A stretch of 64,000 nt of DNA from Sphingomicrobium sp. (GTDB lineage: Bacteria; Pseudomonadota; Alphaproteobacteria; Sphingomonadales; Sphingomonadaceae): contig JAUJOV010000003.1 in assembly GCA_030447545.1 (NCBI GenBank), positions 60,704-124,703 of the forward strand, written 5' to 3'. The stretch's first letter is position 1; each line of letters begins with the position of its first letter. A program made the position numbers and the translations under genes. Shown here in pieces: positions 535-30,094 of the stretch. The notes beneath the pieces were generated by a model. That model searched no databases. It worked only from the letters and a program-made list of their open reading frames with translations, and had not been told where the DNA came from.

Positions 535-3365
535 ATGTCGAAATCCGGCTGGCTGCTGTCCGCAGCCCTGTTCACTGTCACGTGCCCCGCCCATGCTCAG
601 GACGCCCAGAGTGAGCCTGAGACTGACACCGACCGGCAGGCGGCGCAGGCGACCGAGGACGCGACCGCACAAGGCGCGGCCGTCGACGTCGCTGCCCTCG
701 AGGCGCAGCCGGTCGATTCTGCCGACATCATCGTCACTGCGACCCGCCGCAACGAGGCGCTTTCGGACGTTCCGCTTGCCGTCAGCGCGGTGACTGCCGA
801 GCGGCTCGAATATAGCGGCGCGAGCGACATCAGGCAGCTCAACCAGCTGTCGCCCTCGCTTCTGGTTTCCTCGACGGGCTCGGAATCGGTCGGCGCCGTC
901 GCGCGCATCCGCGGCATCGGCACGGTGGGCGACAATCCGGGGCTCGAAAGCTCCGTCGGCCTATTCATCGACGGAGTCTATCGCTCGCGCACCGGACTCG
1001 GCTTCACCGAGCTCGGGCCGCTCGACCGCATCGAGGTGCTGCGCGGTCCGCAGGGCACATTGTTCGGCCGCAACACGTCGGCCGGGCTGATCTCCGTGAT
1101 CACTGCACGGCCGCTGTTCACGCCGATGGCCGCGGGCGAGGTCAGCATCGGCAATTACGGGATGCGCCGGCTCGAAGGCAGCGCCACCGGGCCTGTCGGC
1201 GGGAGCGTCGCTGCCCGACTCGACGCCGTGACCATGAAGCGCGACGGCTTCATCGAGGACGCGATCTCCGGCCGCGACTTCAACGACCGCAACCGCTGGC
1301 TGCTGCGCGGGCAGGCGCTGTTCGAGCCGAACGACGATTTGTCCGTGCGCCTGATCGCCGACTACTCGCACCGCGACGAGGAATGCTGCGCGGCCGTTTT
1401 CCTGCCGACTCGCGACGTCGTTGCAAGCGGCGCCGGCGGAGTGACCACCCAGCCGTCGACCATCGCCGCGATCGAGCGCGGCCTTGGCGCCGTGATCGAC
1501 GAGGACAGCTTCGAGCGCAACACGTCGATTACTCCAGGCCGCAATTACGACAATGAGGTCGATGACGGCGGCCTGTCGGGCGAGCTGGTCTATGATTTGG
1601 GCCGCGCGGAGCTGACCTCGCTGACCGCGTACCGGGTCAACGACCTCGTGCGTGGCCAGGACCTCGACTACAACCGGCTCGACATCCTGTTCCGCGACAG
1701 CGACGGCAGCGCGGGCAACCGGTTCAGGACCTTCACCCAGGAACTGCGACTGCAGGGCGAAGCATTCGGCGGCCGGCTCGACTGGCTTGCAGGCGGCTAT
1801 TTCGCGGATGAGAAGCTGCGGGCGCGCGACAATCTCAGCTACGGCGCCGACTATGCGAGCTACGCCAACTGCCTGGTCGCAGCCAGCTTCGGCGTTCGCG
1901 ACCACGCCCGCGCTGCTCGCGCCGACCTCGCCGACATGCTTCAATCCGGCCGCCGCGGGCGCGATCCTGCCGCTGCTTCCCGCCGCTCAGCAGCCGGTGC
2001 TCGCGGCCTTGCGCGGCTTGGCGCTTTCGCCGCGCCGATGTTCACCAACAGCGGCTTTTTCAACCTCGCGACCGGTTCGGCCCGGCCTAAGCCTCGACGA
2101 TTGCTGACGCAGGATGAGTTCGATCAGAAGACGCAACTGGGCGCTGTTCACGCACAACATCTTCGCGTCGCCGACGGCCTCGATGTGACCCTCGGCGCTC
2201 GCTACACGCGCGAGCGCAAGACGCTCGACGCGGACCTCACCGACGGCAATGCGGTGTGCACCTTCTTCGCCGCCGCGATTGCAGGGCTGCAGGGTCTGCC
2301 CTGCGTGCTTCCGAGCGCGCCGGGCGGTGCGTTCCGGATCGACGACAGCCGCAGCGAGGGCAAGCTCTCGGGCACCGCAATCCTCAGCTACAAATTCTCC
2401 GACTTCCTGACCTATGCGAGCTATTCGCGCGGCTACAAGGCGGGCGGGTTCAACCTCGACCGGTCGGGGCTGAGGCGAAGCAACGGCAATGGCGCGATCT
2501 GCGTCAGCGCGGCGCAGCCCGGTTGCGGCAGGCATCGCGGCGCGTCGGGCGAGGATTTGCAGTTTGAGCCGGAGATCAACAACGCCGTCGAGCTCGGCGT
2601 GAAATATAATGGGCGCGGGTTCGACGCGAACGTTGCCTTTGTTCCGCCAGCTGTTTCGCGATTTTCAGCTCAACACGTTCAACGGCGTCAACTTCATCGT
2701 CGAGAACATCAACAGCTGCGAGGATGATCTCGGCGGCGCCGACGAGGACAATGTCGCGGCGAGCGGCGCTGCGCAGCGGCGACACGCGCGCGGGCGTCGA
2801 AAGCAAAGGCGTCGAGGTCGAGCTGTTCGCGAGGCCGATCGCCGACGTCAGCTGGAACTTCGGGGCGGTGTACGCGAATACGCGCTACCGCGACGACCTC
2901 GTCGGACGCGACGGACGGCCGCTTGCGCCGCCGCTGTTCCAGCTTCCGGGACGGCGGCTGTCCAACTCGGCGCAATGGACCGCGACGACTTCGCTCGCCT
3001 GGACTCCGCCGATCGGCGGGACGGGCATGCGCGGGCTGTTCTATGTCGACGCGCGGTACATGAGCGCGTTCAACACGGGGTCGGACCTGGACGTGGAAAA
3101 GGGGCAGGACGCGTTCACGGTGCTCAATGGCCGGGTCGGCATCCACGGCGCCGATCAGGCCTGGGGTGTCGAGCTGTGGGCTCAGAACCTGACCGACACC
3201 GACTACACGCAGGTGGCGTTCGACGCGCCGCTGCAGGGCTCGGGGACCGAGCGCGCCGTGCGCCGCGGTTTCATCCCGCGCGCGACCCAGCTCTACGGCG
3301 CGTTCCTCGGCGAGCCGCGCACGCTCGGGCTGACTCTTCGCGCGAGGTGGGGAGCGCCGCGCTAG
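535..3365 (+). CDS. TonB-dependent receptor (frame broken several times)
   Basis: Outer-membrane receptor for energised uptake of siderophores, vitamins or oligosaccharides; the substrate cannot be told. The likely start is the ATG at 535, giving the signal peptide MSKSGWLLSAALF..AHAQ. The ORF track begins earlier at 487, but that extension has no signal-peptide character. A plug domain follows (DIIVTATRRNEALSDVPLAV; VLRGPQGTLFGRNTSAG), then a long beta-barrel ending in LRARWGAPR. The barrel part changes frame near 1.9-2.1 kb and again near 2.62 and 2.75 kb. Joining the frames gives a normal receptor of about 940 residues. The last four bases (CTAG) are shared with the stop codon of glnD on the other strand. 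It is either a pseudogene or, more likely, affected by sequencing indels. Confidence 0.85.
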
Positions 3366-6075
3366 GCGGCCTTGGCTTCGTCGACCTGCCGCGCCGCGTC
3401 GAGCAGCGCGCTGCGCAGCTGCTCGATGTCATCCGGCCCAAGCCTGCGGCCGTCGGCGCGCGTAAGGTAGAACACGTCGACCGCGCGCTCGCCATAAGTC
3501 GCGATATGCGCCGAATGGATTCGGTGGCCGTGGGCGTAGATCGCGCCGGCAAGCCCCGCGAGCAGGGCGGGCCGGTCGCGGGCGTTGACCTCGACCACCG
3601 TTGTCCTGCTCGACGCGCGCTCGGCAATGGCGACGAGCGGCGCGACCTTGAACGCGGCGGTCCGCGCCGGGCTCGCTGCGCGCGGCAGCGCCGGCGGCTC
3701 CTCGGCGCCAAGCGCGCTCTCGACCGCCCGAACCAGCCGGTTCCTCAGGCGCCGGTCTGAATAGGCGCGGCCCTGGCCGTCCTGGACGAGCAGATTGTCG
3801 AGCGCCATTCCGTCGCGCGTGGTGTGGATTCGCGCATCGATGATGCTTGCGCCGGCCGCCGCGAGCCCCGCGCAGATCCGGTAGAACAGGCCCTCGCGGT
3901 CGGGCGCGAACACGCTGATCCGAGTCGCGCCGCTGTCGGGATCGTCCTCGGCGATCACGCTCGGCACGGGATCGCCGATGCGCGCCTCGGCGCATGCGAC
4001 CTGCCGCGCATTGGCCAGCTGCAGCTCGAACGGCTCGGCCAGCCAGTAGCTGTCGGGAAGGCGGTGCGCCTGGGCCTTTGCCGCGCTCGCCTTCCAGCCG
4101 AGCGTCTCGGCCAGCCTGCGCTGCCGCTCGACCACCAGGTCGCGCCGGCCGCGTTGCTTGTGGCCGAGCCGAAGCCGGTCCTCGGCCGCCTCGAACAGGG
4201 TACGCAGGAGCGCGCGCTTCCACTCGCTCCAGGTGCCCGGCCCGACCGCGCGGATGTCGACCACGGTCAGGATCAGAAGCAGTCGAAGCCGCTCGGGGCT
4301 TTGCACCCGCGACACGAAATCCTCGATCGTCTTCGGGTCGGCGAGGTCGCGCTTGAACGCCGTCGAGCTCATCAGCAGATGGTGCCGCACGAGCCAGGCG
4401 ACCATTTCGGTCTCGGCCGGGTCGAGCCCGAAGCGCGGGCAGAGCTTGAGCGCCACCTGCTCGCCGAGCACGCTGTGGTCGCCGCCGCGGCCCTTGGCGA
4501 TGTCGTGGAGAAGCACTGCGACATAGAGCGTTCGGCGCGAGCCGATCTGCTTGAACAGAGCCGTCGAGAGCGGGTGGTCGTCCTTCAGCTCGCCGCGCTC
4601 GATCGCCGCGAGCAGCCCGATCGCGCGGATCGAATGCTCGTCGACCGTATAATGGTGGTACATGTCGAACTGCATCTGGGCGACGACACGGCCGAAGTCG
4701 GGGACGAAGCGGCCGAACACGCCCGATCTCGTTCATCCAGCGAAGCACCGTCTCGGGCGAGTTGATGCAGGTCAGCACCTCGAGGAACAGCGCATTGCGC
4801 GCGGATCCCTGCGCACCTTCTCGTCGATCAGCCTGGCGTCGCGCGAGGCCGCGCGCATCGCCGCCGGATGGATCTCGAGCTGCTCGCGCGCGGCAAGCGC
4901 GAACAGCTCGATCAGTCGCACCGGCTCTTTGGCGAAATAATCGTCGCCGGGGATCGACAGCCGGCCGCGGTCGAGCACGAAGCCGGCCAGGCGCCTCGGG
5001 CGGCGGCGGATGGTCGGAAGGGCGAAGCGCGTGCCTTTTCGCCCCAGCTGCTCGTCGAGCTGCGCGAGGAAGACGCCGGTGAGGTCGCCGACCGCCTTTG
5101 CGTTCAAAAATAGAATTGCATGAAGCGCTCGACCGCGGATTTCCCCGGCCGGTCGGCGTAGTGCATGGCTCGCGCAATCTGCTTCTGGTGGTCGAAGCCG
5201 AGCCTTTCCTCGGCGCGGCCGGCCGACAGATGGTGTGGCAGCGCACCGCCCAGAAGAAGCGCTCGGCGCGCTCGAAGCGCCGGAACTCGGCGGCGCTGAA
5301 CAGGCCTGCGCGCACCAGTCCGCGGGCTCCTCGACCCCGTGCACATATTTGCCGATCCAGTAGAGCGCGTGCAGGTCGCGAAGCCCGCCCTTGCCGTCCT
5401 TGACGTTGGGCTCGACCAGGTAGCGGCTGTCGCCCATGCGCTTGTGGCGCTCGTCGCGCTCGGCGAGCTTGGCGGCGACGAACTCGGCCGCGGTGCCAGC
5501 GACGAGCTTCGACCGGAAGCGCTGCATCGCCGCGGCGAAGATCGCCTCGTCGCCCCAGATCAGGCGTGCTTCGAGAAGGCGGTGCGCACCGTCATGTCGC
5601 CGTGGCGAGCGCCATCAGCTCGTCGATCGAGCGGATCGAATGGCCGACCTTGAGCTTCAGGTCCCACAGCAGATGGAGCATCGCCTCGACGCATTGCTCG
5701 GTCCCCGGCGACCGCCTGTCGAGCGTCAGGAACATCAGGTCGACGTCGCTGAACGGCGCCATTTCGCCGCGCCCGGTCCCGCCGAGGCCGACGATGGCAA
5801 CCTGCTCTTCATTGTCGCAGGCGATGAAGTCATGCGCGAGGCGAACCAGCTGGTCGTGCAGATAGGCGGTCGCTCGAGGCGCGGCGCGGCCGCGGTCGGG
5901 GTTGGCGCAGAGCCGGCGGGCGACCTCGGCGCGGCCTTCGTCGAGCGCGTGCCTGAGGATGTTCGCGCCTCTGCGTGGCGCGCGTCCGCCTTGAGCGCGG
6001 CAAGCTCGTCGGCGAGCGAGCGGCGGTCGATGATCGCGCGCGGCGGTTCTCGACCGTATCGAAGCTGCGGCTCAT
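3362..6075 (-). CDS. glnD: Bifunctional PII uridylyltransferase / uridylyl-removing enzyme (frame broken)
   Basis: GlnD reads glutamine level and adds or removes UMP on PII proteins, steering nitrogen metabolism. Domains seen in order: nucleotidyltransferase ([20 protein letters not shown]), GlnD helical region ([19 protein letters not shown]), HD hydrolase ([15 protein letters not shown]) and two C-terminal ACT domains ([39 protein letters not shown]). The start is taken at the ATG at 6075 ([13 protein letters not shown]), which overlaps the mutS stop as ATGA, so the two genes are transcribed together from mutS. The C-terminal 450 residues form one clean ORF, but the N-terminal half is split by at least five single-base shifts between 4.7 and 6.0 kb. 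Sequencing error is the likely reason. Confidence 0.9.
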
Positions 6076-8686
6076 CTGCCCTGCTCGGCGGCCAGCCGCT
6101 TGAGCGCGTAGAGCGCCTCGAGCGCGTCGCGCGGGCTCAGCGCGTCGGGATCGATGGTCTCGAGCGCCTCGGCCAGCGGATCGGCCGGCTGCTCGGGCTC
6201 GGCCGCGGCGAACAGCGGCAGATCGTCGAGCCCGGCCGCGATCCCGCCGGTCGCGTCGCGGCCGGCTCGAGCTTGCCGAGCACCGATTTCGCGCGCGCGA
6301 CCACGCGCGGCGGGAATCCGGCGAGCTTGGCGACGGCAATTCCGTAGCTGCGGTCGGCGGCGCCGTCGGCGACCTCGTGGAGGAGGACGAGATCGCCCTT
6401 CCACTCGCGCGCCCGGACGTGGTGGAGCGACAGGCAGTCGAGCCGGCCGGCGAGCCGGGTCAGCTCATGATAATGGGTCGCGAACAGCGTCCGGCAGCGG
6501 ACCTCGTCGTGCATCGCCTCGACCACCGCCCAGGCGATCGCGAGCCCGTCATAGGTCGAGGTGCCGCGGCCGATCTCGTCGAGGATGACGAGGCTCTGGG
6601 CGTCGCCTGCGCGAGGATCGCGGCGGTCTCGACCATCTCGACCATGAAGGTCGAGCGGCCGCGCGCGAGATTGTCCGAGGCTCCGACGCGGCTGAACAAT
6701 TTGTCGACGATGCCGACCTTCGCGCGAGCCGCGGGGACGAAGCTTCCGGCCTGGGCGAGCACGGCGACGAGCGCCGACTGGCGAAGGAAGGTCGACTTGC
6801 CGCCCATGTTGGGCCCGGTGATCAGCCACAGCCGGTCGTCCAGCCCGAGCCTCAAATCGTTGGCGACGAAGCGCTCGCCGGTCGAGCCGAGCGCCGCTTC
6901 GACGACCGGGTGGCGGCCGGCCTCGACCTGGAGGCACGGCTGCTCGACGATGCGCGGCTTGTCCCAGCCGCCTTCGGCCGCCCGGCTCGCGTGGCTTGCG
7001 GCGACGTCGATGCGGGCGACGGCTTCGGCGGTGCCGAGGATGCGCGAGGAAGCTGCGAAGGCCGGCTCGCGTGAGCTGCTCTCGGCACCGCCTCGGCGGC
7101 GAGCGCGTGCGCTCCGGCCTCGACGACGCGGCTCGCTTCCTCGTGGAGCTCGGGCGAATTGAAGCGCACCACGCCGGCGAGCGTCTGGCGATGGGTGAAG
7201 CCCGATCGGGCGCCATCAGCTTGTCGGCGTGCCGCGCGGCGATCTCGACATGATAGCCGAGCACTGCATTGTGCCGGATCTTCAGCGAGGGGATCCCGGT
7301 CGCCTCGCGGTAGCGGTTTTCGAGCGCCGCGATCGCTCGGCGGCCGTGCGCGGCGGCGTCGCGAAGCGAGTCGAGCGCCTCGTCATAGCCTTGAGCGATA
7401 TAGCCGCCCTTCGATGAGTCGAGCGGCGGCGAACCGACCAGCGCCCGGGCGAACTGCTCGACCAGCGGCTCGTGACCGCGCAGGCGAGGCAGAGGGTCTC
7501 GAGCAGCGGCGGGCGGTCGGGTTCGCGCGCAAGTTCATCGCCCAGGGCCGACGCGGCAGCGAGGCCGTCGCGCAGCAGCGCGAGGTCGCGGGGGGTTCCG
7601 CGCCCGGCGGTCAGCCGCGCGAGCGCCTGCGCGAAGTCGGGCATCGCTTTCAGCGCCGAGCGCACCCGCTCGCGCTTCGGGCGTCCTCGTGCAGCCATTC
7701 GACCAGGGCGAGGCGCGCCTCGATCGCGCGCTTGTCGGTCAGCGGGGCGGAAATGTCGGAGCCGAAGCAGGCGGCGGCCGGCGGCGCTCTGGCAGCGGTC
7801 GATCTCGCCGAGCAGGCTTCCAGCGACGCTGCCGGCGATCGAGCGGGTGAGCTCGAGGCTGTCGCGCGTCGCCGCGTCGATCGCCATGTGCGCGAGCCGC
7901 GACACGCGGCGCGGAGCGTCGAGCAGCGTGCCGGCGCCCTTTTGCGTCGAGTCGAGATAGGCGAGCAGGCCGCCGGCGGCAGCGAGCTCCGCTCGGCCCG
8001 GGCTGCCGATCCCGTCGAGCGTTGCAAGCCCGAAGCGGCTTTTGAGCGCGCGTTCTCCGGCGAGGCTGTCGAAGCCCTCGTCGCGCCGGGTGGTCTTGAT
8101 GCCGGGGACCGCTGCCTCGGCCACGACTTCGGCGGGCGCCAGTCGGGCAAGCTCGGATGCGAGCTCGCCGGGCCCGCAGGCGATCAGCTCGAAGCGGCCG
8201 GTCGAAATGTCCGCGGCGGCGATCGCCCATTCGTCGCCCCGGACGCCGATCCGGGGTCGCCCGCGCGCGCGACGGCAGCGAGCCAGTTGGCCGCGCCGGA
8301 GTCGAGCAGGGTCTCCTCGGTCAGGGTGCCGGGGTGACCAGTCGGACGATCGCACGGTCGACCAGCGCCTTCGAGCCGCGCGCCTTGCGCGCTTGCGCCG
8401 GGCTTTCGGTCTGCTCGGCGATCGCGACGCGGTGCCCGGCGCGGATCAGCCGGGCGAGATAGGATCTGGCCGCGTGGATCGGCACTCCGCACATCGCGAC
8501 CGGCTCGCCGTCGGCCTCGCCGCGCTTGGTCAGCGCGATGTCGAGGCAGGCCGCGGCGATCTTGGCGTCGTCGAAGAACAGCTCGAAGAAATCGCCCATC
8601 CGGTAGAACAGCAAGGCATCGCCGGCCTCGGCCTTGAGCCGCCGGTACTGGGCCATCATCGGAGTGGGTGCGTCGCAGCGCGCCAT
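6072..8686 (-). CDS. mutS: DNA mismatch repair ATPase MutS (frame broken)
   Basis: MutS recognises mismatches and small loops after replication and recruits MutL. The N-terminal mismatch-binding domain has the Phe-x-Glu mismatch-contact motif within [14 protein letters not shown]. The C-terminal ABC-type ATPase shows Walker A ([10 protein letters not shown]), the signature/Walker B region ([16 protein letters not shown]) and the following His loop (FATHYHEL). The start chosen is the ATG at 8686 (MARCDAPTP); the ORF track runs upstream of it without family similarity. Total length is about 870 residues, normal for the family, but the reading frame changes about seven times, near 8.32, 8.26, 7.7, 7.48, 7.27, 6.6 and 6.27 kb. 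Its stop overlaps the start of glnD, so the two form one operon. Confidence 0.9.

Positions 8687-17597: not shown

Positions 17598-17601
<4 letters not shown>
16288..17601 (+). CDS. Major facilitator superfamily transporter
   Basis: A 12-helix drug/metabolite-type MFS permease in the cytoplasmic membrane, 437 residues. The loop 2-3 signature is visible as WAEKSDRHGRKALTLVG, and there is a central cytoplasmic loop rich in Arg/Gly (RLGRRRGRGAAM) between the two six-helix halves. The start is a GTG at 16288, and a second GTG six bases later is also possible. The substrate cannot be inferred from the sequence. It is divergent from the methyltransferase gene. Its stop shares TTAG with the CDC48-like gene coming from the other side. 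Confidence 0.85.
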
Positions 17602-19916
<2,315 letters not shown>

Positions 19917-21352: not shown

Positions 21353-22766
21353 ATGAGCGAGAGCGAGAACATCGCCACCGCAGCCCCGCCCGACGCCGCA
21401 GAGCCGATGGACGAGGAAGATCGTCTTCGGCCCGAGTTCGTCGACCTCGTCCTCGACGCGGTTGCAAGCGGCGACGACGAAACCGCGCGCGAGCTGGTCG
21501 CTCCGCTCCACCCCGCCGACGTCGCCGACCTGATCGAGCTTGCCGCCCGCGACGAGCGCGACGGGCTGGTCAGGGCGCTCGCCGGGATCGTCGGCCCCGA
21601 CGTGCTCGCCGAAATGAACGAGCATGTGCGCGAGAGCCTGATCGACGCACTCGAGCCCGAGCAGGTCGCCGACCTCGCCGGCCAGCTCGAGACCGACGAT
21701 GCGGTCGCGATCCTCGAGGACCTCGAGGAGGACGAGCAGCGCGCGGTGCTCCGGGCAATGGAGCCCGACGACCGCGCAGCGATCGAGGAAGCGCTCACCT
21801 ATCCGGAAGAATCGGCCGGCCGGCTGATGCAGCGCGACCTGTGCGCCGTGCCCGAGCACTGGAAGGTCGGCCAGGTGATCGATTACCTGCGCTCGACCGG
21901 CGAGCTTCCGACCGACTTCTGGGAAGTGTTCGTGGTCGGCCCGAGCCACCACCCGGTCGGCACGTGCAAGCTCTCGACCATCCTTCGCTCCCCGCGCTCG
22001 ATGCCCGTGACCGACATCATGATCCGCGACCAGACCCTGATCCCGGTCGACATGGACCAGGAGGAGGTCGCGCTGCGCTTCCAGAAATATGCGCTCATCT
22101 CGGCCGCCGTGGTCGATGACGAGGGGCGCCTGGTCGGCATGATCACGGTCGACGACATCGTCCACATCATCCAGGAGGAAGCGAGCGAGGACGTGCTTCG
22201 CCTGTCGGGCGCCGGCGACGAGGGCGACATCAACGAGCCGGTGATGGAAAGCTACCGCAGCCGGGTGCGCTGGCTGATCGCCAACCTCGTCACTGCGCTG
22301 GTCGCCTCGACCGTGATCAGCCAGTTCGAAGGCGCGATTGCCGAGCTCGTGGTCCTCGCCGTGCTGATGCCGATCGTTGCCGGCGTCGGCGGCAATGCCG
22401 GCACCCAGGCGCTTGCCGTCACGGTGCGTGCAATCGCGACCAACCAGCTGACCGGCTCCAACCGCTGGCGGGCAGTCGGCCGCGAGGTGCGGGTCGCGCT
22501 CCTCAATGGCGGCACGGTCGCCGCAATCCTCGGCGTCGGCGTCGCAATCGCGTTCGGCAACCCGCTGCTGGGCGGAGTGATCGCTGCGGCGATGCTCACC
22601 AACATCCTGATTGCCGGCACCGTCGGCTCGCTCGTCCCGCTGACGCTCGAGCGGATGGGGGTGGACCCGGCGGTCGGCTCGTCGATCTTCGTCACCATGA
22701 TGACGGATTCGATGGGCTTCCTGCTTCTTCCTCGGCCTTGCCGTCGCCAGCGGGCTGGTGGGCTAA
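21353..22766 (+). CDS. mgtE: Magnesium transporter MgtE (one frame shift near the 3' end)
   Basis: Mg2+-gated Mg2+ channel in the inner membrane. The acidic N-terminal superhelical MgtE_N domain runs to about residue 140 (LHPADVADLIEL; LEPEQVADLAGQLETDDAVAIL). A CBS pair follows (YPEESAGRLMQRD; KYALISAAVVDDEGRLVGMITVDDI), then five membrane helices including the pore signature MPIVAGVGGNAGTQALAV. The start is the ATG at 21353 (MSESENIATA); the upstream 30 residues in the ORF track are not supported. After DSMGF the frame breaks by one base near 22.73 kb. Reading the neighbouring frame gives LFLGLAVASGLVG and a stop at 22764-22766, the normal family ending. Confidence 0.92.
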
Positions 22767-22821
22767 GCGCCCGCGCAGCTAAGTCATTGTCACGACAGCT
22801 GTATTTGGGCATCACAGCCCG

Positions 22822-23220
22822 ATGCCGAATCTCCACCTGACCAAGGTCGCAATGGGCTGCCGCGACGTCGAGTCGCTCAGGCGCCGGGCGGCCGAGCGGG
22901 CGCAGGGGCCCGAGCGGCGAGTGCCGACCCGGATGCGCCCGCGGCGCTGCGACGAGCTCGTCGGCGGAAATCTCTACTGGATCGTCAAGCACCGGATCAT
23001 CGGCTGCCAGCAGATCCTGCGTTTCGAGGATCGCGAGGACGGGCGCATCGACATCGTCTGCTCGGCCGAATTGAGGACGCTCGTCCCGGTCCCGCGGCGC
23101 GCGCACCAGGGCTGGCGATATTTCGACGCCGACGCGGCCGTCGCGGCCAACGACGAGACCGGCGTCGGCGAGCTCCCGCCGCAGCTTTACGGCCGCCTCG
23201 CGGCGCTCGCGCTGGTCTGA
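22822..23220 (+). CDS. DUF1489 family protein
   Basis: Short (132-residue) protein of a family found almost only in alphaproteobacteria; its function is unknown. The recognisable core is the run TRMRPRRCDELVGGNLYWIVKHRI followed by CQQILRFE, with a basic middle and an acidic surround. There is no signal peptide or membrane segment. It is not obviously linked in function to mgtE upstream, although it follows it closely on the same strand. Confidence 0.8.
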   Translation: MPNLHLTKVAMGCRDVESLRRRAAERAQGPERRVPTRMRPRRCDELVGGNLYWIVKHRIIGCQQILRFEDREDGRIDIVCSAELRTLVPVPRRAHQGWRYFDADAAVAANDETGVGELPPQLYGRLAALALV

Positions 23221-23290
23221 GCCAAGCCGCCTTGCCCGCGCCGGGGGGCGCGGCTATCGCCTGCCACTCGTCCAGTCAGGGAGTCAGCGC

Positions 23291-23962
23291 ATGGCCAGTG
23301 TTTCGTCGAGGATCGATTCGAAAGTCGCAAGCCAGGCGATGCTCAGCCATCCCTTCTATCAGGCGTGGACCGAAGGCCGGCTGCCGCTCGACACGCTGCG
23401 CGCCTACGCGCGGCAATATTTCCACCATGTCGAGGCTTTCCCGCGCGCGGTGAGCGCGGTGCACAGCGCCTGCCCCGACCGCGACGGACGGCGGATGCTG
23501 GCCGAGAACCTCGCCGAGGAGGAAGGCATCGAGGCCGGCAAGCAGGACCATGCGAGCCTGTGGCTGATGTTCGCCTGCGGGCTCGGCGAGGACGAGGCTG
23601 CGGTTCACGCGCAGCAGCTCAACCCGGACACCCAGGCGCTGATCGACACCTTCCGCCGCCTGTCGCGCCGCTCCTACGCATCGGGCCTCGGAGCGCTCTA
23701 CGCATACGAAAGCCAGTTCCCGGGCGTCGCTTCGGCCAAGATCGAGGGCCTCGTCGAGCGCTATGCGATCAGCGACGAGGAAACCTTGCGCTTCTTCCGG
23801 GTGCACGAGAGCGCGGACGTCGAGCACAGCCAGGTGTGCCGCGCCCTCCTCGACCGCCTGCCCGAGGCCGAGCGGGAGGAAGCCGTCGAAGCGGGCGAGG
23901 AGCTCGCCGGCGCGCTGTGGAACTTCCTCTCGGGCGTCGAGCGCCAAGCCAGCGTCCACTAG
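23291..23962 (+). CDS. CADD/TenA-like di-metal oxygenase, candidate self-sacrificing pABA synthase
   Basis: Heme-oxygenase-fold protein of the family of Chlamydia CADD, which makes para-aminobenzoate by cleaving one of its own tyrosines. Counting in this 223-residue protein, candidate metal ligands are E77 or E78, H87, E140, H172, D176 and H179 (HxxxDxxH). The Tyr at 23 in HPFYQAW and the Lys at 150 stand at the spacing known for the CADD tyrosine and amine-donor lysine, with Lys ten residues after the Glu ligand. From family knowledge, this suggests a folate precursor role. From sequence alone I cannot exclude a different oxidase activity. A class V aminotransferase gene follows 37 bases downstream. 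Confidence 0.8.
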   Translation: MASVSSRIDSKVASQAMLSHPFYQAWTEGRLPLDTLRAYARQYFHHVEAFPRAVSAVHSACPDRDGRRMLAENLAEEEGIEAGKQDHASLWLMFACGLGEDEAAVHAQQLNPDTQALIDTFRRLSRRSYASGLGALYAYESQFPGVASAKIEGLVERYAISDEETLRFFRVHESADVEHSQVCRALLDRLPEAEREEAVEAGEELAGALWNFLSGVERQASVH

Positions 23963-23999: not shown

Positions 24000-25145
24000 A
24001 TGCCCGTCCTGGCTTCGCAGCGATCGGCGTTCGAGGTTCCCGAGCATATCTGCTACCTCAACTGCTCGTACATGGCGCCTCAACTTCGCGTCGTCCGGCA
24101 GGCGGGAAAGGCGGCGATCGACTGGCGCTGCCGGCCGTGGGAAATCCGCTCGGCCGACTTCTTCGACAAGGTCGAGCGCGTTCGGACCCTGTTCGGCGAG
24201 CTGGCCGGAACCTCGGCCGAGTGCATCGCGCTGGTGCCCTCGGCAAGCTACGGCCTGGCCACCGCGGCGGCGGCGCTGCCGTTCGGCCCCGGCGAGGCAG
24301 TCCTGCTGCTCGAAGGCGAATATCCGTCGAACTTCTACATCTGGGAGCGGCTTGCGCGCGAGCGCGGGGGCACTCTGGTCAGGGTCGAGCGTCCATCCGA
24401 CGGCGACTGGACGGCTGCCGTGCTCGACCGGCTCGTTCCCGAGGTGCGGATCGCGTCCCTGCCGCATTGCTACTGGGCCGACGGCGCTGCGCTCGACCTG
24501 GCGCGAATCGCGGGCGCGTGCCGGGCGCAGGAAACCGCGCTGGTGCTCGACCTCACCCAGTCATGGGGAGCAATGCCGCTCGACCTCGCAGCCGTGGACC
24601 CGGACTTCGCGATCGCCGCCGGCTACAAGTGGCTGTTGAGCCCTTACGGCTCGGGCCTGATGTATGTCGCGCCGCGCCATCACGACAAACGGCCGCTCGA
24701 GGAAAACTGGGCGGCCCGCGCCGGAGCCGAGAATTTCGCCGAGCTGGTCCCGTACAAGGACGCCTATCAGCCGGGCGCCCGCCGCTTCGACGTCGGGGAG
24801 CGAAGCAACTTCACCGCGGTTGCGCAGATGGAAGCGGCGCTCGAGCAGCTTGTCGCGTGGGGCGTCGAGGCGATCGCCGCGCAGCTTCAGATCCTCACGG
24901 GCAAGCTCGCCGAGCTTTGTGCCGGTGCGGACATGCGCCAAAGCCCTGCGCCCTTGCAGGCGCCGCACATCATCGGCTTCCCCTTGCCGGCCGAGGCCGG
25001 CGCGGACCTCGTCGAGCGAATGGCCGCCGACGGGGTGTACCTCAGCCGGCGTGGCGCCATGCTGCGGCTGTCGCCTCATCTTCACGTGGAGCAAAGCGAC
25101 CTCGATCGCTTCGAGAAAGCGCTGCGGTCCTCAGGCAAGCGCTGA
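24000..25145 (+). CDS. Class V aminotransferase family PLP enzyme
   Basis: PLP-dependent enzyme of fold type I, class V (cysteine-desulfurase/kynureninase-like), 381 residues. The PLP Lys is in AIAAGYKWLLSPYGSG, preceded by the Asp-x-x-Gln/His region VLDLTQSWGAMPLDL. The substrate side has NFTAVAQMEAAL. The start is the ATG at 24000 (MPVLASQRSAFEVPEH); the ORF track reads far upstream through the CADD gene. The reaction is undetermined: kynureninase, selenocysteine-lyase-like or a simple aminotransferase. Its close pairing with the CADD gene may be meaningful. Confidence 0.8.
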   Translation: MPVLASQRSAFEVPEHICYLNCSYMAPQLRVVRQAGKAAIDWRCRPWEIRSADFFDKVERVRTLFGELAGTSAECIALVPSASYGLATAAAALPFGPGEAVLLLEGEYPSNFYIWERLARERGGTLVRVERPSDGDWTAAVLDRLVPEVRIASLPHCYWADGAALDLARIAGACRAQETALVLDLTQSWGAMPLDLAAVDPDFAIAAGYKWLLSPYGSGLMYVAPRHHDKRPLEENWAARAGAENFAELVPYKDAYQPGARRFDVGERSNFTAVAQMEAALEQLVAWGVEAIAAQLQILTGKLAELCAGADMRQSPAPLQAPHIIGFPLPAEAGADLVERMAADGVYLSRRGAMLRLSPHLHVEQSDLDRFEKALRSSGKR

Positions 25146-25173
25146 CGCCACGTTCCACGCGTAAAAAATCGCC

Positions 25174-25199
25174 GGAACGCTGAACAACCGCCGTTTGTT
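25174..25199 (+). promoter_or_regulatory. EcfG-like promoter motif upstream of the receiver gene
   Basis: GGAAC at 25174-25178, a 17-base spacer and TGTT at 25196-25199 fit the alphaproteobacterial general-stress promoter pattern GGAAC-N16/17-CGTT except for the first base of the -10. Transcription would begin only a few bases before the ATG at 25210, and no Shine-Dalgarno sequence is visible there, so the message would be nearly leaderless. Chance occurrence is possible. Confidence 0.4.
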
Positions 25200-25209
25200 T
25201 GTCACTGCT

Positions 25210-25593
25210 ATGAACACTCAGATCCCTCGTGAAGTCCTCGTGGTCGAGGACGAGCCGCTCGTCAGGATCGTTGCCACTGACGCGATTGCCGACAGCGGGA
25301 TCATGGCGTGGGAGGCCGGAGACGCGGCAGAGGCTCTCGATGTGCTTCAGGAGCACCCCCGAATCGGCCTGGTCGTCACCGACGTGAACATGCCGGGAGA
25401 GCTGGATGGCCTCGCTCTTGCCGACAAGGTCACCGCGGCGCGGCCCGACCTGTCCGTCATCGTCACCTCGGGGCAGGTGCATGTACAACCGCAGGACATG
25501 CCGGAAGGCAGCTCGTTCCTGCCCAAGCCGTACAGGACGGATCGTCTGGTGGAGCTTGTGCACAGGACCCTGGACGGGCCTGAGGGCAACTGA
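25210..25593 (+). CDS. Stand-alone response regulator receiver domain protein
   Basis: Single CheY-like receiver domain with no output domain. Acidic pair EDE near residue 14, phospho-acceptor Asp in VVTDVNMPGELDG, Thr/Ser switch in IVTSGQ and the conserved Lys in LPKPYRTDRL. The start is the ATG at 25210 (MNTQIPREVLVVEDE), with the ORF track's preceding five residues discarded. Such single-domain regulators in sphingomonads can modulate histidine kinases of the general stress response. No kinase gene is adjacent. Confidence 0.88.
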   Translation: MNTQIPREVLVVEDEPLVRIVATDAIADSGIMAWEAGDAAEALDVLQEHPRIGLVVTDVNMPGELDGLALADKVTAARPDLSVIVTSGQVHVQPQDMPEGSSFLPKPYRTDRLVELVHRTLDGPEGN

Positions 25594-25710
25594 AGCCCGC
25601 CAGGGAGCACCCCCAAGACTCACCCGACCCCTTTCGCGCCCCCCGGCCTGCTTGACAGGACGCGCTGATCGGCGCCTCTTTGGCGCTCGTTCCGCAGGGG
25701 GAGATGCGGC

Positions 25711-26796
25711 ATGGCTGGTTTGCGCTTGCTCGCTGTTGGGCTGGGGCTGCTCGGAGCCGTTCCGTCCGTCTCCGCGGCTCAGCCCGCTTCCCCCGCTCAG
25801 CGCCCCGCCGGCGCGCCCGCGCCGCCGACCAGGCTGTTTTCGTCCGCCGATCCCGTCCGAGTGACTCTGCGCGGCCCGATTGGCGCGGTCGTCTCGACCC
25901 GCGAGGAACAGCGCACCGCGCGCCCCGCGACCCTCCAGCTGACCTATCCCGCCGCCGAAACCCACGCGATCCTGCTGTCGCCGCGCGGCCTCACCCGGCG
26001 CAAGCGCGAGACCTGCACCTTTCCGCCGCTCAGGGTCGAATTCGCCGCCAAGCCGCCGCCGTCGTCCCTGTTCGAGCGCCAGCGGCGAATCAAGCTGGTC
26101 ACCCATTGCCGAAGCGGCGCCGCCTTCCAGCAACATCTGCTCCTCGAATATGCCGCCTACCGGATGTTCAATGTCCTCAGCCCGAGGGGCTTGAGGGTTC
26201 GGCTCGCGCAGGTCGATTATGTCGGCGCCGATGGCCGGCCAATGACCTCGCGGCTCGGCTTCTTCATCGAGGATCCCGACGATGCCGCGCGCCGCAACGG
26301 CCTGTACGAAGTGCGCACCAGGGACATCCCCCACTCGCGGCTCGACGCGCGCGAGGCGGTTCGCGCCGCCTTGTTCCAGTACATGATCGGCAACGTCGAC
26401 TGGTCGATGAATGTCGGTCCGCCCGGCGACATCTGCTGCCATAATTTCCGGCTGATGGGCGCAAGCCCCGCTGCCCGCACGGGAATCATCCCGGTGCCGT
26501 ATGACTTCGACTTTTCGGGCCTGGTCGACGCGCCTTATGCGACGGCGCCGGACATATTGCCGATCTCTTCGGTGCGTCAGCGCCACTATCGCGGATATTG
26601 CTCGCTGGGCGGCCATGCCCCTGCGCTCGCCGCCGAGTTCCGCAGCCGCCGCGCCGAGCTGCTCGCGGTGCTCGGCCAGGTTCCGCAGCTCGAGGAGCGC
26701 AGGCGCCAGCGCGCGGCCGCCTATCTCGAAGGCTTCTTCCGCGACATTGCCACCGACGACGGCGTGCGCCGGCTATTGCGGACCTGCATCGGCTAG
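25711..26796 (+). CDS. Secreted protein with weak CotH-kinase resemblance
   Basis: 361 residues with an N-terminal signal peptide (MAGLRLLAVGLGLLGAVPSVSAA) and a Pro/Ala-rich linker. I do not recognise a named family with certainty. The segments RLGFFIEDPDDAARRNGLYE, then FQYMIGNVDWSMN and VPYDFDFSGLVDAPYA, resemble in order and spacing the NG-Y/F, IGNxDWxxxN and DFDxSG motifs of CotH-type atypical protein kinases. If true, the Asp of DFD would bind metal and the protein would phosphorylate secreted proteins. The 3' end overlaps by 24 bases with the DUF4956 gene on the other strand. Confidence 0.6.
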   Translation: MAGLRLLAVGLGLLGAVPSVSAAQPASPAQRPAGAPAPPTRLFSSADPVRVTLRGPIGAVVSTREEQRTARPATLQLTYPAAETHAILLSPRGLTRRKRETCTFPPLRVEFAAKPPPSSLFERQRRIKLVTHCRSGAAFQQHLLLEYAAYRMFNVLSPRGLRVRLAQVDYVGADGRPMTSRLGFFIEDPDDAARRNGLYEVRTRDIPHSRLDAREAVRAALFQYMIGNVDWSMNVGPPGDICCHNFRLMGASPAARTGIIPVPYDFDFSGLVDAPYATAPDILPISSVRQRHYRGYCSLGGHAPALAAEFRSRRAELLAVLGQVPQLEERRRQRAAAYLEGFFRDIATDDGVRRLLRTCIG

Positions 26797-27462
26797 ATCG
26801 GCCGAGTGCTTGTGCGGGCGCGCCGGGGCCGCCACCGGCTCGCCGGCGGGCCCGCAATCCTCGAGATAGCGCTTCATGCCTTCGCGCTCGCCGTAGGCGC
26901 TGACCCACAAGGCGATGAAGCAATAGTTGAACGCGAGCGACATCAGCCCGGCGAGCTCGACCGCGCCGATGCCCGCCGCGAGCCCGATGCCGACCGCGAG
27001 CAGGATGAACAAGGCGTCGCCGGTGCTCTTGAGCGAATTGCGGAACCTGACCGCGCCGCGATCCCGGCGAGCGAAAAGGCGAGCGCAAGCGAGTGCTGAA
27101 CGATGATCACCACGCTGGTGACGACGATCGGCAGGATGACGACCGTGTCGACCAGCGACTGGTCGTACGCCTCGTGGCTGCGCGCATTCATGTAGACCCA
27201 GCTCACCGGAAGGGCGGTGAGCAGCGCGCCGAGGAGCGCCATTGCCATCCAGGCGAGGCTCGTGCCAAGCAGATCGACGCGCGTGACCTGCGGTGCGTGG
27301 TCGAGCTGCTCGAGGCCGAGCAGAGGTCGAGATCAGCGCCTGCGCTCCGCCGATCGGCAGATAGGGCTCCATGCCCGGCGCGAGGGTCAGCGCGGCCGCG
27401 ACCAGCGCCGCGATTCCGGCATAATAGAGCGTCAGGATCCCGAACAGTCGCAAGGCCCGCAT
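26773..27462 (-). CDS. DUF4956 family membrane protein (frame broken twice)
   Basis: Small inner-membrane protein of a family of unknown function. After joining frames there are several helices (LFGILTLYYAGIAALVAAALTL; then VVILPIVVTSVVIIVQHSLALAFSLAGI; then ALFILLAVGIGLAAGIGAVELAGL). The characteristic RFRNSLKSTGDALFILLAVG follows the central helix. The frame leaves near 27.33 kb and returns near 27.06 kb, so indels are compensating. A proline/histidine-rich tail ends the protein. No neighbour suggests a function. Confidence 0.7.
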   Translation of the reverse strand: MRALRLFGILTLYYAGIAALVAAALTLAPGMEPYLPIGGAQALISTSARPRAARPRTAGHARRSAWHEPRLDGNGAPRRAAHRPSGELGLHECAQPRGVRPVAGRHGRHPADRRHQRGDHRSALACARLFARRDRGAVRFRNSLKSTGDALFILLAVGIGLAAGIGAVELAGLMSLAFNYCFIALWVSAYGEREGMKRYLEDCGPAGEPVAAPARPHKHSADLADAGPQ

Positions 27463-27498
27463 TTCGCCTCCCCCCGGACAGCGCGTTACATGGCCAGC

Positions 27499-28306
27499 CT
27501 AAGCCATGCGCTGCTTGCTGTCATCCGCCAGCGGGAAGTCGGGAGCCGGCCGGAGCACGCCATAGTCTTCGGTCAGCGCAGGCCCCTTGAGCGGCGGAAA
27601 GTCGATGTCGCCTTGGGGAAGCTCGGTCTCCGGCAGCCGGTCGAGCAGATGCCGAAGCAAGGTCAGCCGGCCGAGGTGCTGGTCGTTGTAATCGATCAGC
27701 GTCCAGGGCGCGTGACGGGTGTGGGTCGCGGCGAGCATGTCCTCGCGCGCTCGCGTGTAATCGGCGTAGCGCTCGCGCGGGCGACATCCATGTCCGACAG
27801 CTTCCACCTCTTGAGCGGGTTGTGCAGCCGCCGCTCGAAGGCCTTTCCTCCTGCCTGGCCTGGTCGCAGCACAGCCAGTATTTGAACAGGAAGATGCCGT
27901 CCTCGACGAGCTGGCGCTCGAAGTGCGGAACCGCGGCGAGAAAGGCCTTGGCCTCGGCTTGGGTGCAAAAGCCCATCACCCACTCGACGCCCGCGCGGCT
28001 GTACCAGCTGCGGTCGAACAGGGCGATTTCGCCGCTTGGCCGGCAGATGATGCTCGGCATAACGCTGGAAATACCACTGGCCCTGCTCGCGCTCCGTCGG
28101 CGGGGCGAGGACACGACCTTGCACTGGCGCGGGCTCAGCGCGCGCGCGATCGCGTGGATCGTGCCGCCCTTGCCGGCGGTGTCGCGCCCTTCGAAGATGA
28201 CGACCATGCGCTGCCCGGTCTCCGCGACCCAGCGCGCCATCATAACAAGCTCGCGCTGCATCGGCTCGAGCAGCGCCTGATATGCGTCGTCGGTGAGCCC
28301 GCTCAC
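27499..28306 (-). CDS. ppk2: Polyphosphate kinase 2 (frame broken)
   Basis: PPK2 enzymes use polyphosphate to phosphorylate nucleoside diphosphates or the reverse, buffering energy under stress. The start is the GTG at 28306 (VSGLTDDAYQALLEPMQRE). Walker A is FEGRDTAGKGGTIHAI and Walker B IALFDRSWYSRAGVEWVMGF, followed by the family motif FLFKYWLCCDQARQEERF. The C-terminal HTRHAPWTLIDYNDQHLGRLTLL is typical. At least three frame changes (near 28.1, 27.85 and 27.75 kb) interrupt it. Length after repair is about 269 residues, as in class I single-domain PPK2. Confidence 0.88.
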
Positions 28307-28509
28307 TAGCCTCCCCCATTGGGAAGGGCGGTATCCTGACACTGGCCTCGCCTCGCGGCAACGGCTCACAAAAAGGCGCGCGCCGGTTGCGGCCCTGCCG
28401 CGCCCGCGCCGTTCAGCTCACAACCTGTCGAAAGAGGTCAGAACAGGATGACCAGGAGAATGATCAAAGAATTAGGCCGCCGATTCCGATATACATGGCA
28501 ATGCTCCCG

Positions 28510-29265
28510 TTATTGTCGCCTCGGGAGTGTAACGATTGCCCGAGCGGCGGGGTCCTGGCGTTCGCCGTGTTGACGGCAGCCGGCGACCACCGCGGATCCC
28601 TGCGCCGTCACGGTGCAGGCCGGATCTCCGCTGACCTCCACGCTGGCGGTGCCGCGAGCGTCGACCTTGGCGCTGTTGGTCGCATTGGCCTGGATCACCG
28701 AAGCCCCGTCGGCGCCCAGCGTCGCGTCCTTCACGGCAAGCGCCGACGCATCGAGCTTCGACGTGCCGCGAAGCACCGCGGTCATCTTCGGCGCGGTGCC
28801 CGCGACGGTGGCGCTGCCCGCGCCGCTGATGCCGATCTTGAACTGGTCGACCGCGGCATTGCCGATCGCCGCGCTGCCCGAGCCCTGGACGGCAAGGTCG
28901 AACGACAGCCCCTTCACCCGGTCGATCGCCAGCGCCCCCGATCCGTTGAGGAAGGCGGCGGCAAGCTCGTGCGTGCCGACGCGGATGTCGACCGGCCCGA
29001 CCGGCTGCCCGGGATAGCCGCCCCACGACGAGGGGTTGCCGCGCACCACCAGCGTTCGCCCCTGGACTGCGACCGACACGCGGTCGATCGCCGCCGACGA
29101 CCCGCTCACGCTGGCGAAGGGCGCGACTCCGGTCGAGACCGTCACGCGGAACGGCCCATCGATCCGCACCTTGTCGAACGACGTGACGCTGAAGCTTCGC
29201 TCGGCCGGTTGGAGTGGAGCAGCGGCCGCAACGAGCAGCAGGGCGATTAGCGGGGCGATCTTCAT
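28510..29265 (-). CDS. DUF2807 (GIN-domain) exported protein
   Basis: Predicted exported protein made of the right-handed beta-solenoid DUF2807 domain. The start at the ATG 29265 gives the signal MKIAPLIALLLVAAAAPLQPA. The rest is the repetitive solenoid rich in GSG/VDxAG patterns (LAVQGSGSAAIGNAAVDQFKIG; ISGAGSATVAG). Function is unknown; such proteins are commonly cell-surface. A paralogue lies immediately upstream on the same strand, so the pair is probably one operon that arose by duplication. Confidence 0.85.
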   Translation of the reverse strand: MKIAPLIALLLVAAAAPLQPAERSFSVTSFDKVRIDGPFRVTVSTGVAPFASVSGSSAAIDRVSVAVQGRTLVVRGNPSSWGGYPGQPVGPVDIRVGTHELAAAFLNGSGALAIDRVKGLSFDLAVQGSGSAAIGNAAVDQFKIGISGAGSATVAGTAPKMTAVLRGTSKLDASALAVKDATLGADGASVIQANATNSAKVDARGTASVEVSGDPACTVTAQGSAVVAGCRQHGERQDPAARAIVTLPRRQ

Positions 29266-29309
29266 GCCCGCCACTCTGGCCGCTTCGTGGTTAAGGGCGA
29301 GTTAGCAAG

Positions 29310-30032
29310 TCAGCCGCAGCGCACTTTGCCCGACCCGGCGTTGGAGACGGTGCACTTGGCGCCGCCCATGATCTCGACGTCGCCCGATCCGGCGATGTCC
29401 ACCTTCGCGGCGCGAGTCGCGTGGGCGGTCACGTCGCCCGAGCCGGCGATCGACACCGCGGCCGTCTCGGTCGCGACGTCCCTGGCGTCGATCGCGCCCG
29501 ATCCTGCGATGTCGTACTGCGCCTGGCTCGCCCGGCCGCGGGCTTCTGCCCGGCCCGATCCGGAAATGCCCATCTTGAGCCGGCCGACCTCGACCGCGCC
29601 GATGCTGAGGTTGCCCGAGCCGGAAATTCCACCCTCGAAGCTCTCGCCGGTCACCCTATCGACCTGGATGTCGCCCGAGCCGGCGAGCTGCGCCGCGCTG
29701 AGCCGCGGAACGGTGACGGTGAGCGCAACCTTGCCGCGGGAGCCCCGGTTGAAGCCCGTCCCGCTGCGCTTCTGCGGGTGAATCCTCAGCGTATCGCCAT
29801 GCACCTCGACCACCATCTGCTCGATCATGCGCTGGCTTCCACGCGCGTGGACGCTTGGCTCGGCGCCGGTGCGGACGGTCACGTCATAGGCGCCCGAAAG
29901 CGCGATCCGCTCGAAATTGCCGACCTGAAAGTCGCGCTCGATCGTCGGCCCGCTCTCCTGGCTGTGCGCCTTGCTGCACCCGGCAGCCGCCGCGGCCGCC
30001 GCCGCAATCGCGAAAATCACCGACCTGATCAT
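29310..30032 (-). CDS. DUF2807 (GIN-domain) putative lipoprotein
   Basis: Second DUF2807 protein, starting at the ATG 30032 after an excellent ribosome site (GGAGGTGACG). The leader MIRSVIFAIAAAAAAAAGCSK ends in a lipobox, predicting lipid attachment at the Cys (residue 18) and anchoring to a membrane. The solenoid is regular (LSAAQLAGSGDIQVDRV; GSGNLSIGAVEVGRL; GSGAIDARDVATETA). It shares the same fold as the downstream neighbour but has a lipid anchor, so the two may sit on different sides of the envelope. Confidence 0.85.
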   Translation of the reverse strand: MIRSVIFAIAAAAAAAAGCSKAHSQESGPTIERDFQVGNFERIALSGAYDVTVRTGAEPSVHARGSQRMIEQMVVEVHGDTLRIHPQKRSGTGFNRGSRGKVALTVTVPRLSAAQLAGSGDIQVDRVTGESFEGGISGSGNLSIGAVEVGRLKMGISGSGRAEARGRASQAQYDIAGSGAIDARDVATETAAVSIAGSGDVTAHATRAAKVDIAGSGDVEIMGGAKCTVSNAGSGKVRCG

Positions 30033-30094
30033 CGTCACCTCCAAGCTGAGTTAGTGAATTAATACACCACTTCAGCACTGCAGCGCAAGCCCGC

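Follow-up and report, generated by a model that had tools for sequence, protein, structure and literature searches.

The window, a stretch of 64,000 nucleotides from a soil Sphingomonas, contains on its forward strand (23291 to 23962) a gene whose sequence almost certainly identifies it as encoding a self-sacrificing p-aminobenzoate (pABA) synthase of the CADD family. Our overall explanation, in which we place high confidence, is that this enzyme replaced PabA and the PabB-PabC fusion in one clade of Sphingomonas. The enzyme type is already known from CtCADD and NePabS, and the window protein is a further member; self-sacrificing pABA synthases in free-living bacteria have been published, and Sphingomonas was previously listed among the carriers (PMC11965152). 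What appears to be new in the literature searched is the mapped replacement, at genus scale and in free-living bacteria, of PabA plus PabB-PabC by a single-use enzyme, together with a naturally dominant Tyr/Phe metal pattern and a conserved PabC fragment. Below we document the family, fold and residues of the protein, the reciprocal presence of the genes, the insertion site and the loss of pabBC at its locus.

Family assignment and predicted fold

The gene encodes 223 amino acids, starts with ATG at 23291, ends with TAG at 23960 to 23962 and has the sequence GGGAG (23279 to 23283) shortly 5' of its start codon. Its reading frame is intact despite frameshifts elsewhere in the assembly. These affect the C-terminus of MgtE (~22720 to 22780), PPK2 (27521 to 28369) and rpoB, which lies in 8 pieces on another contig (C60) of the window's genome (G000), and they suggest that uncorrected long-read indels are present in this MAG. 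Codon usage of the CADD gene is ordinary (index 0.61, compared with 0.73 for rpoB and 0.61 for mgtE) and does not point to the strong expression that an enzyme limited to one turnover might require.

The assignment draws on a family model, a structural model and orthologues within the genus. The window protein matched the NCBIfam model of the CADD family, TIGR04305, with 262.6 bits (curated cut-off 200), and the E-value of 2.4e-78 shows that this match is not due to chance. The closest solved sequences found with phmmer were those of Chlamydia trachomatis CT610/CADD (1rcw, 8va9) and of a 4-aminobenzoate synthase (9pj4), which contains the published peptides of NePabS. An AlphaFold (AF2) model built with 37 aligned homologues (mean pLDDT 96.1) predicts a heme-oxygenase-like fold of seven helices near that of CtCADD; comparison with structures 8va9, 8vag and 1rcw gave TM scores of 0.89-0.91 and rmsd values of 1.5-1.6 Å. 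A search for viral CADD homologues found none.

The superfamily as a whole shares the fold and the metal ligands, and structures of PqqC, BesC and UndA were also among the matches to the model. It could therefore be argued that the protein is another heme-oxygenase-like oxygenase, of the PqqC, BesC or UndA type, which acts on a free small substrate and resembles CADD in the shared metal site only. However, the window protein scored 43.7 bits against the PqqC model TIGR02111, far under the cut-off of 240 and hence outside that family, and 34.5 bits against the BesC model, whose cut-off is 500. The residues described in the following section bear on the same question.

Sacrificial-type residues, metal ligands and predicted metal preference

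The preliminary description had proposed that Y23, E140, K150, H172, D176 and H179 occur at the spacings of CADD. All six residues are indeed found at these positions, and phmmer alignment to 1rcw pairs them with Y27, E142, K152, H174, D178 and H181, respectively, so that Y23 and K150, the two residues whose register mattered most, are both in register. The residues of CADD that have been published as sacrificial are Tyr27 and Lys152 (PMC11965152). In NePabS the counterparts of Y23 and K150 are Y25 and K159. Two further metal ligands, which the description lacked, are E77 and H87 (E81 and H88 in CADD), and the complete dimetal site thus consists of three His and three carboxylate ligands: E77, H87, E140, H172, D176 and H179. 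In addition, Y39 aligns with an essential second Tyr (NePabS Y41), and Y43 and W91 align with residues of the proposed radical path (NePabS Y45 and W99); the roles of Y41, Y45 and W99, and the metal switch discussed below, were described by Stone et al. 2025 (PMC11965152).

Residues Y23, Y39, Y43, E77, H87, W91, E140, K150, H172, D176 and H179 are each invariant in 90/90 distinct homologues, although part of this invariance stems from the search itself, because the homologues were gathered with peptide patterns including HPFYQAWT and HESADVEH, a bias that applies to the sites covered and from which K150 is exempt. The homologues come from Sphingomonas, other Alphaproteobacteria, Cyanobacteria, Acidobacteriota and Armatimonadota, and one is from an archaeal MAG. 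The codon of Tyr23, which by family would be the ring donor, is located at 23357 to 23359, and that of Lys150, the amine donor by family, at 23738 to 23740 (both on the forward strand, like all codons given here). HDO paralogues have Ser, Leu, His or another residue at the first position and Tyr, Gly, Thr or another residue at the second. The sphingomonad HDO paralogues that have the metal ligands (L003, L010, L012, L067 and L069) contain neither the sacrificial Tyr nor the Lys, and the three paralogue-holding genomes that were checked for PabB (G028, G211 and G205) all keep it. The invariance of Y23, Y39, Y43, W91 and K150 in the homologues, and their absence from true HDO paralogues of relatives, argue against an oxygenase acting on a free substrate, as does the presence of the CADD gene exactly where PabB is absent (see below). 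We consider such an oxygenase highly unlikely, and a self-sacrificing synthase remains the preferred reading.

One of the paralogues deserves separate mention. The CADD-like HDO of L003 (genome G028, reverse strand, ~1501 to 2112; 100 bits) adjoins a UbiD-like decarboxylase gene, named here by a look at its sequence. It has the six metal ligands, with Ser and Tyr at the positions of the sacrificial Tyr and Lys, its genome keeps PabB, and it probably represents another type of enzyme within the superfamily.

The ligands E77 and H87 (23519 to 23551) are separated by 10 positions, compared with 7 in CADD, because of a 3-residue insertion in the loop between two helices. In the model this loop comprises residues 79-86 and joins helices 64-78 and 87-97; since the extra residues are confined to the loop, both ligands are predicted to stay in place. 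Among the 90 homologues the spacing is 10 in 55, 7 in 34 and 11 in one. The 56 homologues with the longer spacing are essentially all alphaproteobacterial (one belongs to a MAG labelled Hydrogenophilaceae, yet the protein groups with alphaproteobacterial ones). Among the alphaproteobacterial homologues, those without the insertion are the two from Midichloriaceae. The possibility that the longer spacing reflects a broken metal site was rejected, the inter-helix insertion being conserved across Alphaproteobacteria.

Two other positions concern the choice of metal. Position 139, which directly precedes ligand Glu140 (codons of both at 23705 to 23710), is Tyr in 89/90 homologues; position 168, shortly before ligands His172, Asp176 and His179 (codons from 168 to 179 at 23792 to 23827), is Phe in 76/90 and Tyr in 14/90. 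At the corresponding positions CtCADD (Y141 and Y170) has Tyr/Tyr and uses Mn/Fe, NePabS (F148 and F177) has Phe/Phe and uses Fe/Fe, and NePabS variant F148Y is reported to accept Fe/Fe and Mn/Fe about equally (PMC11965152). Because Tyr139/Phe168 is the pattern of this interchangeable variant, the window enzyme is predicted to use Fe/Fe, or Fe/Fe interchangeably with Mn/Fe. The same Tyr/Phe combination is the commonest natural pattern among the 90 homologues and is present in neither of the two characterised enzymes.

Taken as a whole, the window protein resembles CtCADD (CT610; 1rcw, 8va9, 8vag) in its fold (TM ~0.9), the six ligands, the sacrificial Tyr and Lys, the essential second Tyr and the Tyr directly preceding the Glu140/Glu142 ligand. 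It differs from CtCADD in that identity is 36% in the structural alignment, Phe168 replaces Y170 and the loop between the Glu and His ligands is three residues longer; moreover, its host is free-living and its gene is not located beside folate genes. With NePabS (NE1434 of Nitrosomonas europaea, 9pj4), which complements E. coli ΔpabABC (PMC11965152), it shares a free-living aerobic host, the sacrificial residues and the Phe at the Y170 position. Unlike NePabS, it has Tyr139 in place of Phe148, lacks the extra loop that NePabS has relative to CADD, and has a longer E77-H87 loop.

By analogy with CtCADD and NePabS, we infer that pABA is formed from Tyr23 and Lys150. A heme-oxygenase-like dimetal oxygenase would in this way make pABA for folate synthesis out of its own side chains. 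The reduced dimetal site (E77, H87, E140, H172, D176, H179) and O2 would react, and the oxidising equivalent would pass via the aromatic residues Y139, Y43 and W91 to Tyr23. The ring of Tyr23 would then be cleaved off between CA and CB, leaving a glycine, and be oxidised to the carboxylate, with the amine supplied by Lys150. Each protein molecule would perform one turnover.

Reciprocal presence of CADD and PabABC, and the pabBC locus

The window belongs to a MAG with a completeness of 70.5% and a contamination of 4.1%, which contains a single TIGR04305 protein. The preliminary description had taken a CADD protein with a full set of residues to suggest an alternative to PabABC, to be checked by looking for pabA, pabB and pabC elsewhere in the genome. 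TrpE and an adjacent TrpG are present there, and PabB and a stand-alone PabA are absent. A misreading of TrpE as PabB was dismissed: the sole chorismate-binding match in the genome is an anthranilate synthase (PRK13564, 501 bits, cut-off 471).

The survey was then based on 71 genomes of the genus, which corresponds to the GTDB group containing Sphingomonas sediminicola and S. hankyongi. CADD is present in 24 genomes and the PabB-PabC fusion in 43; no genome has both, and the four genomes that have neither show a completeness of 69-88%. The 24 CADD+ genomes are that of the window, 22 with intact orthologues (80-87% identity) and one in which the gene is frameshifted. PabB scored at least 318 bits in the 43 PabB+ genomes, and TrpE at most 237 bits. 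When only the 53 near-complete genomes (at least 90% complete, at most 5% contaminated) are considered, 15 have CADD and 38 have PabB, and exactly one route is found in 53/53. Stand-alone PabA follows the same division (43/43 PabB+ genomes, 0/24 CADD+ genomes). No CADD+ genome of the genus has PabB-PabC, and in most of them an N-terminal fragment of PabC is all that is left. The two enzymes would have the same role in the pathway, provision of pABA for DHPS, and are non-homologous; unlike the window CADD, PabB-PabC constitutes a catalytic, chorismate-based route that needs PabA. The proposed alternative to PabABC is thus supported by the mutual exclusion of CADD and PabB across the genus and by the remnant at the pabBC site of the window's own genome (see below).

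For the exclusion, Fisher's test gave p = 4e-15, a value that does not allow for shared ancestry and overstates independence because the number of swap events is small: in the rpoB tree the CADD+ species group together or almost so, 2-3 changes between CADD and PabB are required, and monophyly of the CADD+ species was not rejected (p-AU 0.38). As judged from this tree, one or two swaps may underlie the distribution seen in the genus.

The gene folP is found in 53/53 near-complete genomes, and these hosts therefore need pABA. The host of the window protein is thus without PabABC and yet in need of pABA: PabB and stand-alone PabA are lacking, a fragment occupies the pabBC site and folP is present. 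It might be supposed instead that pABA or folate is taken up from soil, that PabBC was lost as dispensable and that the CADD homologue has a different function; the genus has often lost other biosynthetic enzymes, with TrpE missing in many genomes, and a second role has been reported for CADD in Chlamydia (PMC11965152). Pure dispensability would allow genomes without both PabB and CADD, but these amount to 0/53 of the near-complete ones, folP is universal among them, and CADD-bearing genomes of other phyla are mostly without PabB too. Uptake combined with another function of CADD is therefore quite improbable, and CADD most probably provides the pABA.

Two further observations concern individual species and another pathway. 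In S. daechungensis (G212; L113 / L066) the CADD gene is frameshifted and PabB is absent from a closed chromosome; the frameshift is likely a sequencing error, and otherwise this species would be a natural pABA auxotroph. Many near-complete species of the CADD+ and PabB+ groups alike lack TrpE and the TrpG next to it, which suggests that tryptophan synthesis was lost repeatedly in the genus.

Independent lineages show the same tendency: 48 of 50 CADD+ genomes, which are mostly from outside the genus, had no PabB above the TIGR00553 cut-off, a count that is weakened because this cut-off is insensitive outside the Sphingomonas group and in distant phyla (4/14 controls pass). The two genomes with both CADD and PabB are a Hyphomonadaceae MAG (G274) and a Chthonomonadales genome (G308). 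In the Chthonomonadales locus L139, from a MAG, a PabB-like gene lies ~3 kb from the CADD gene (2504 to 3319 and 6001 to 6615).

In PabB+ species the fused pabB-pabC gene is located between genes for an M19-type dipeptidase and pdeM (neighbours named by a look at their sequences). The syntenic site in CADD+ genomes contains no pabB, but an open reading frame of 76-84 codons that corresponds to the N-terminal third of PabC. This fragment is intact in 15/17 CADD+ genomes with a readable site. In the window's genome it has 84 codons and is located on the reverse strand of contig C57 (L277), just past the 3' end of pdeM; the other loci are L266-L270, L272-L274, L276 and L278-L282. The fragment starts with ATG, its stop codon as a rule touches that of pdeM, and its consensus is DLEE.MRFDPEEGIADLD.HLDRLK..AEA.GFKFDRHAARNELQAATFGKRR.A.ARLLLSPTGAMAIEV. 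In G232 and G212, which have a rearranged locus, it was not found within ~20 kb of pdeM, and no PabC remnant was found near CADD in the CADD flanks of other lineages that were examined.

The fragment at the syntenic site indicates that the absence of pabBC from the window's genome is not merely due to incompleteness of the MAG, and it takes away most of the doubt on this point. Completeness and contamination of this MAG, together with its error-rich assembly, of which the broken rpoB is an example, would nevertheless be compatible with a contaminant CADD gene or contig and a true genome that has PabBC in the missing 30%. Against this, rpoB on another contig places the genome within the CADD+ clade, the gene order MgtE-DUF1489-CADD is that of this clade, and the pabBC site on contig C57 contains the PabC remnant of the clade in place of pabBC. 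The chance that the gene is a contaminant is negligible, and we conclude that CADD belongs to this genome.

Differences per codon position in the fragment amount to 0.16, 0.145 and 0.417, being highest at the third, and pN/pS is 0.32 with a median dN/dS of ~0.21; the corresponding part of working PabB-PabC gives 0.41 and 0.27. These values indicate purifying selection, and on their basis the fragment is most likely a small protein that is being maintained, as opposed to a sequence in decay. In structure comparisons, its model (pLDDT 90) resembled the small domain found in aminodeoxychorismate-lyase-like proteins (3qqm, 2zgi, 6bb9). The fragment cannot be a lyase because the part with the PLP lysine is missing. 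A literature search for such a PabC fragment found no report. The protein itself is likely functional. That the first ~70 pabC codons were kept under selection as a stand-alone gene whose product acts in the pABA pathway, for instance by chaperoning, activating or regulating CADD, is a tentative and rather unlikely proposal, and a partnership with CADD is speculative. For NePabS, dependence on an activator has been suspected (PMC11965152). Occurrence in the same clade speaks for a link between the fragment and CADD, whereas two CADD+ species that seem to be without the fragment speak against it. The fragment may be the missing partner of CADD, or a small protein that arose recently and is unrelated to it.

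It is puzzling that a free-living bacterium should exchange a catalytic pathway of three activities for an enzyme that is destroyed with each molecule made. The clade constitutes a natural experiment, offering culturable close relatives with either PabB-PabC or CADD and mapped sites of insertion and loss, so that it can be tested directly, outside pathogens, what the self-sacrificing route costs, how it is regulated and which metals it uses.

Insertion site, neighbouring genes and possible origin

The insertion site of CADD is marked by its upstream neighbour, a DUF1489 gene (22822 to 23220, forward strand; Pfam PF07370). This gene immediately precedes CADD in 24/24 CADD+ loci of the genus, and mgtE and DUF1489 are found together without CADD in 25/25 CADD-lacking congeners examined. 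On the other side, two adhesin-head-like genes (28510 to 30044, reverse strand), which were named DUF2807-type by a look at their sequences, fall in orthologous clusters that CADD+ and CADD-lacking loci share and show a weak LiaG match. This pair directly follows CADD in CADD+ relatives and DUF1489 in CADD-lacking ones; in the window, ~4.5 kb of other genes separates it from CADD. CADD would thus have been inserted between the DUF1489 and adhesin-head-like genes and would then have displaced PabA and PabB-PabC in one clade.

This intervening block (24000 to 28400) contains genes for a class V aminotransferase, a response regulator receiver, an uncharacterised protein of 361 amino acids (at 25711) and PPK2; in the other CADD loci of the genus, neither the aminotransferase nor the response regulator was found next to CADD. 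The aminotransferase (24000 to 25145) was considered as an amine-donor partner and discarded, since the window is the only locus of the genus in which it adjoins CADD.

In the protein tree, the sphingomonad CADD proteins form one clade. Its nearest relatives are two MAG proteins, one of them labelled Caulobacteraceae, which suggests that the sphingomonad gene came by transfer from another alphaproteobacterium. Finally, the window also encodes, at 17598 to 19916 on the reverse strand, a CDC48-family AAA ATPase (TIGR01243, 904 bits, cut-off 802.65), a VCP/VAT-like protein in a sphingomonad.
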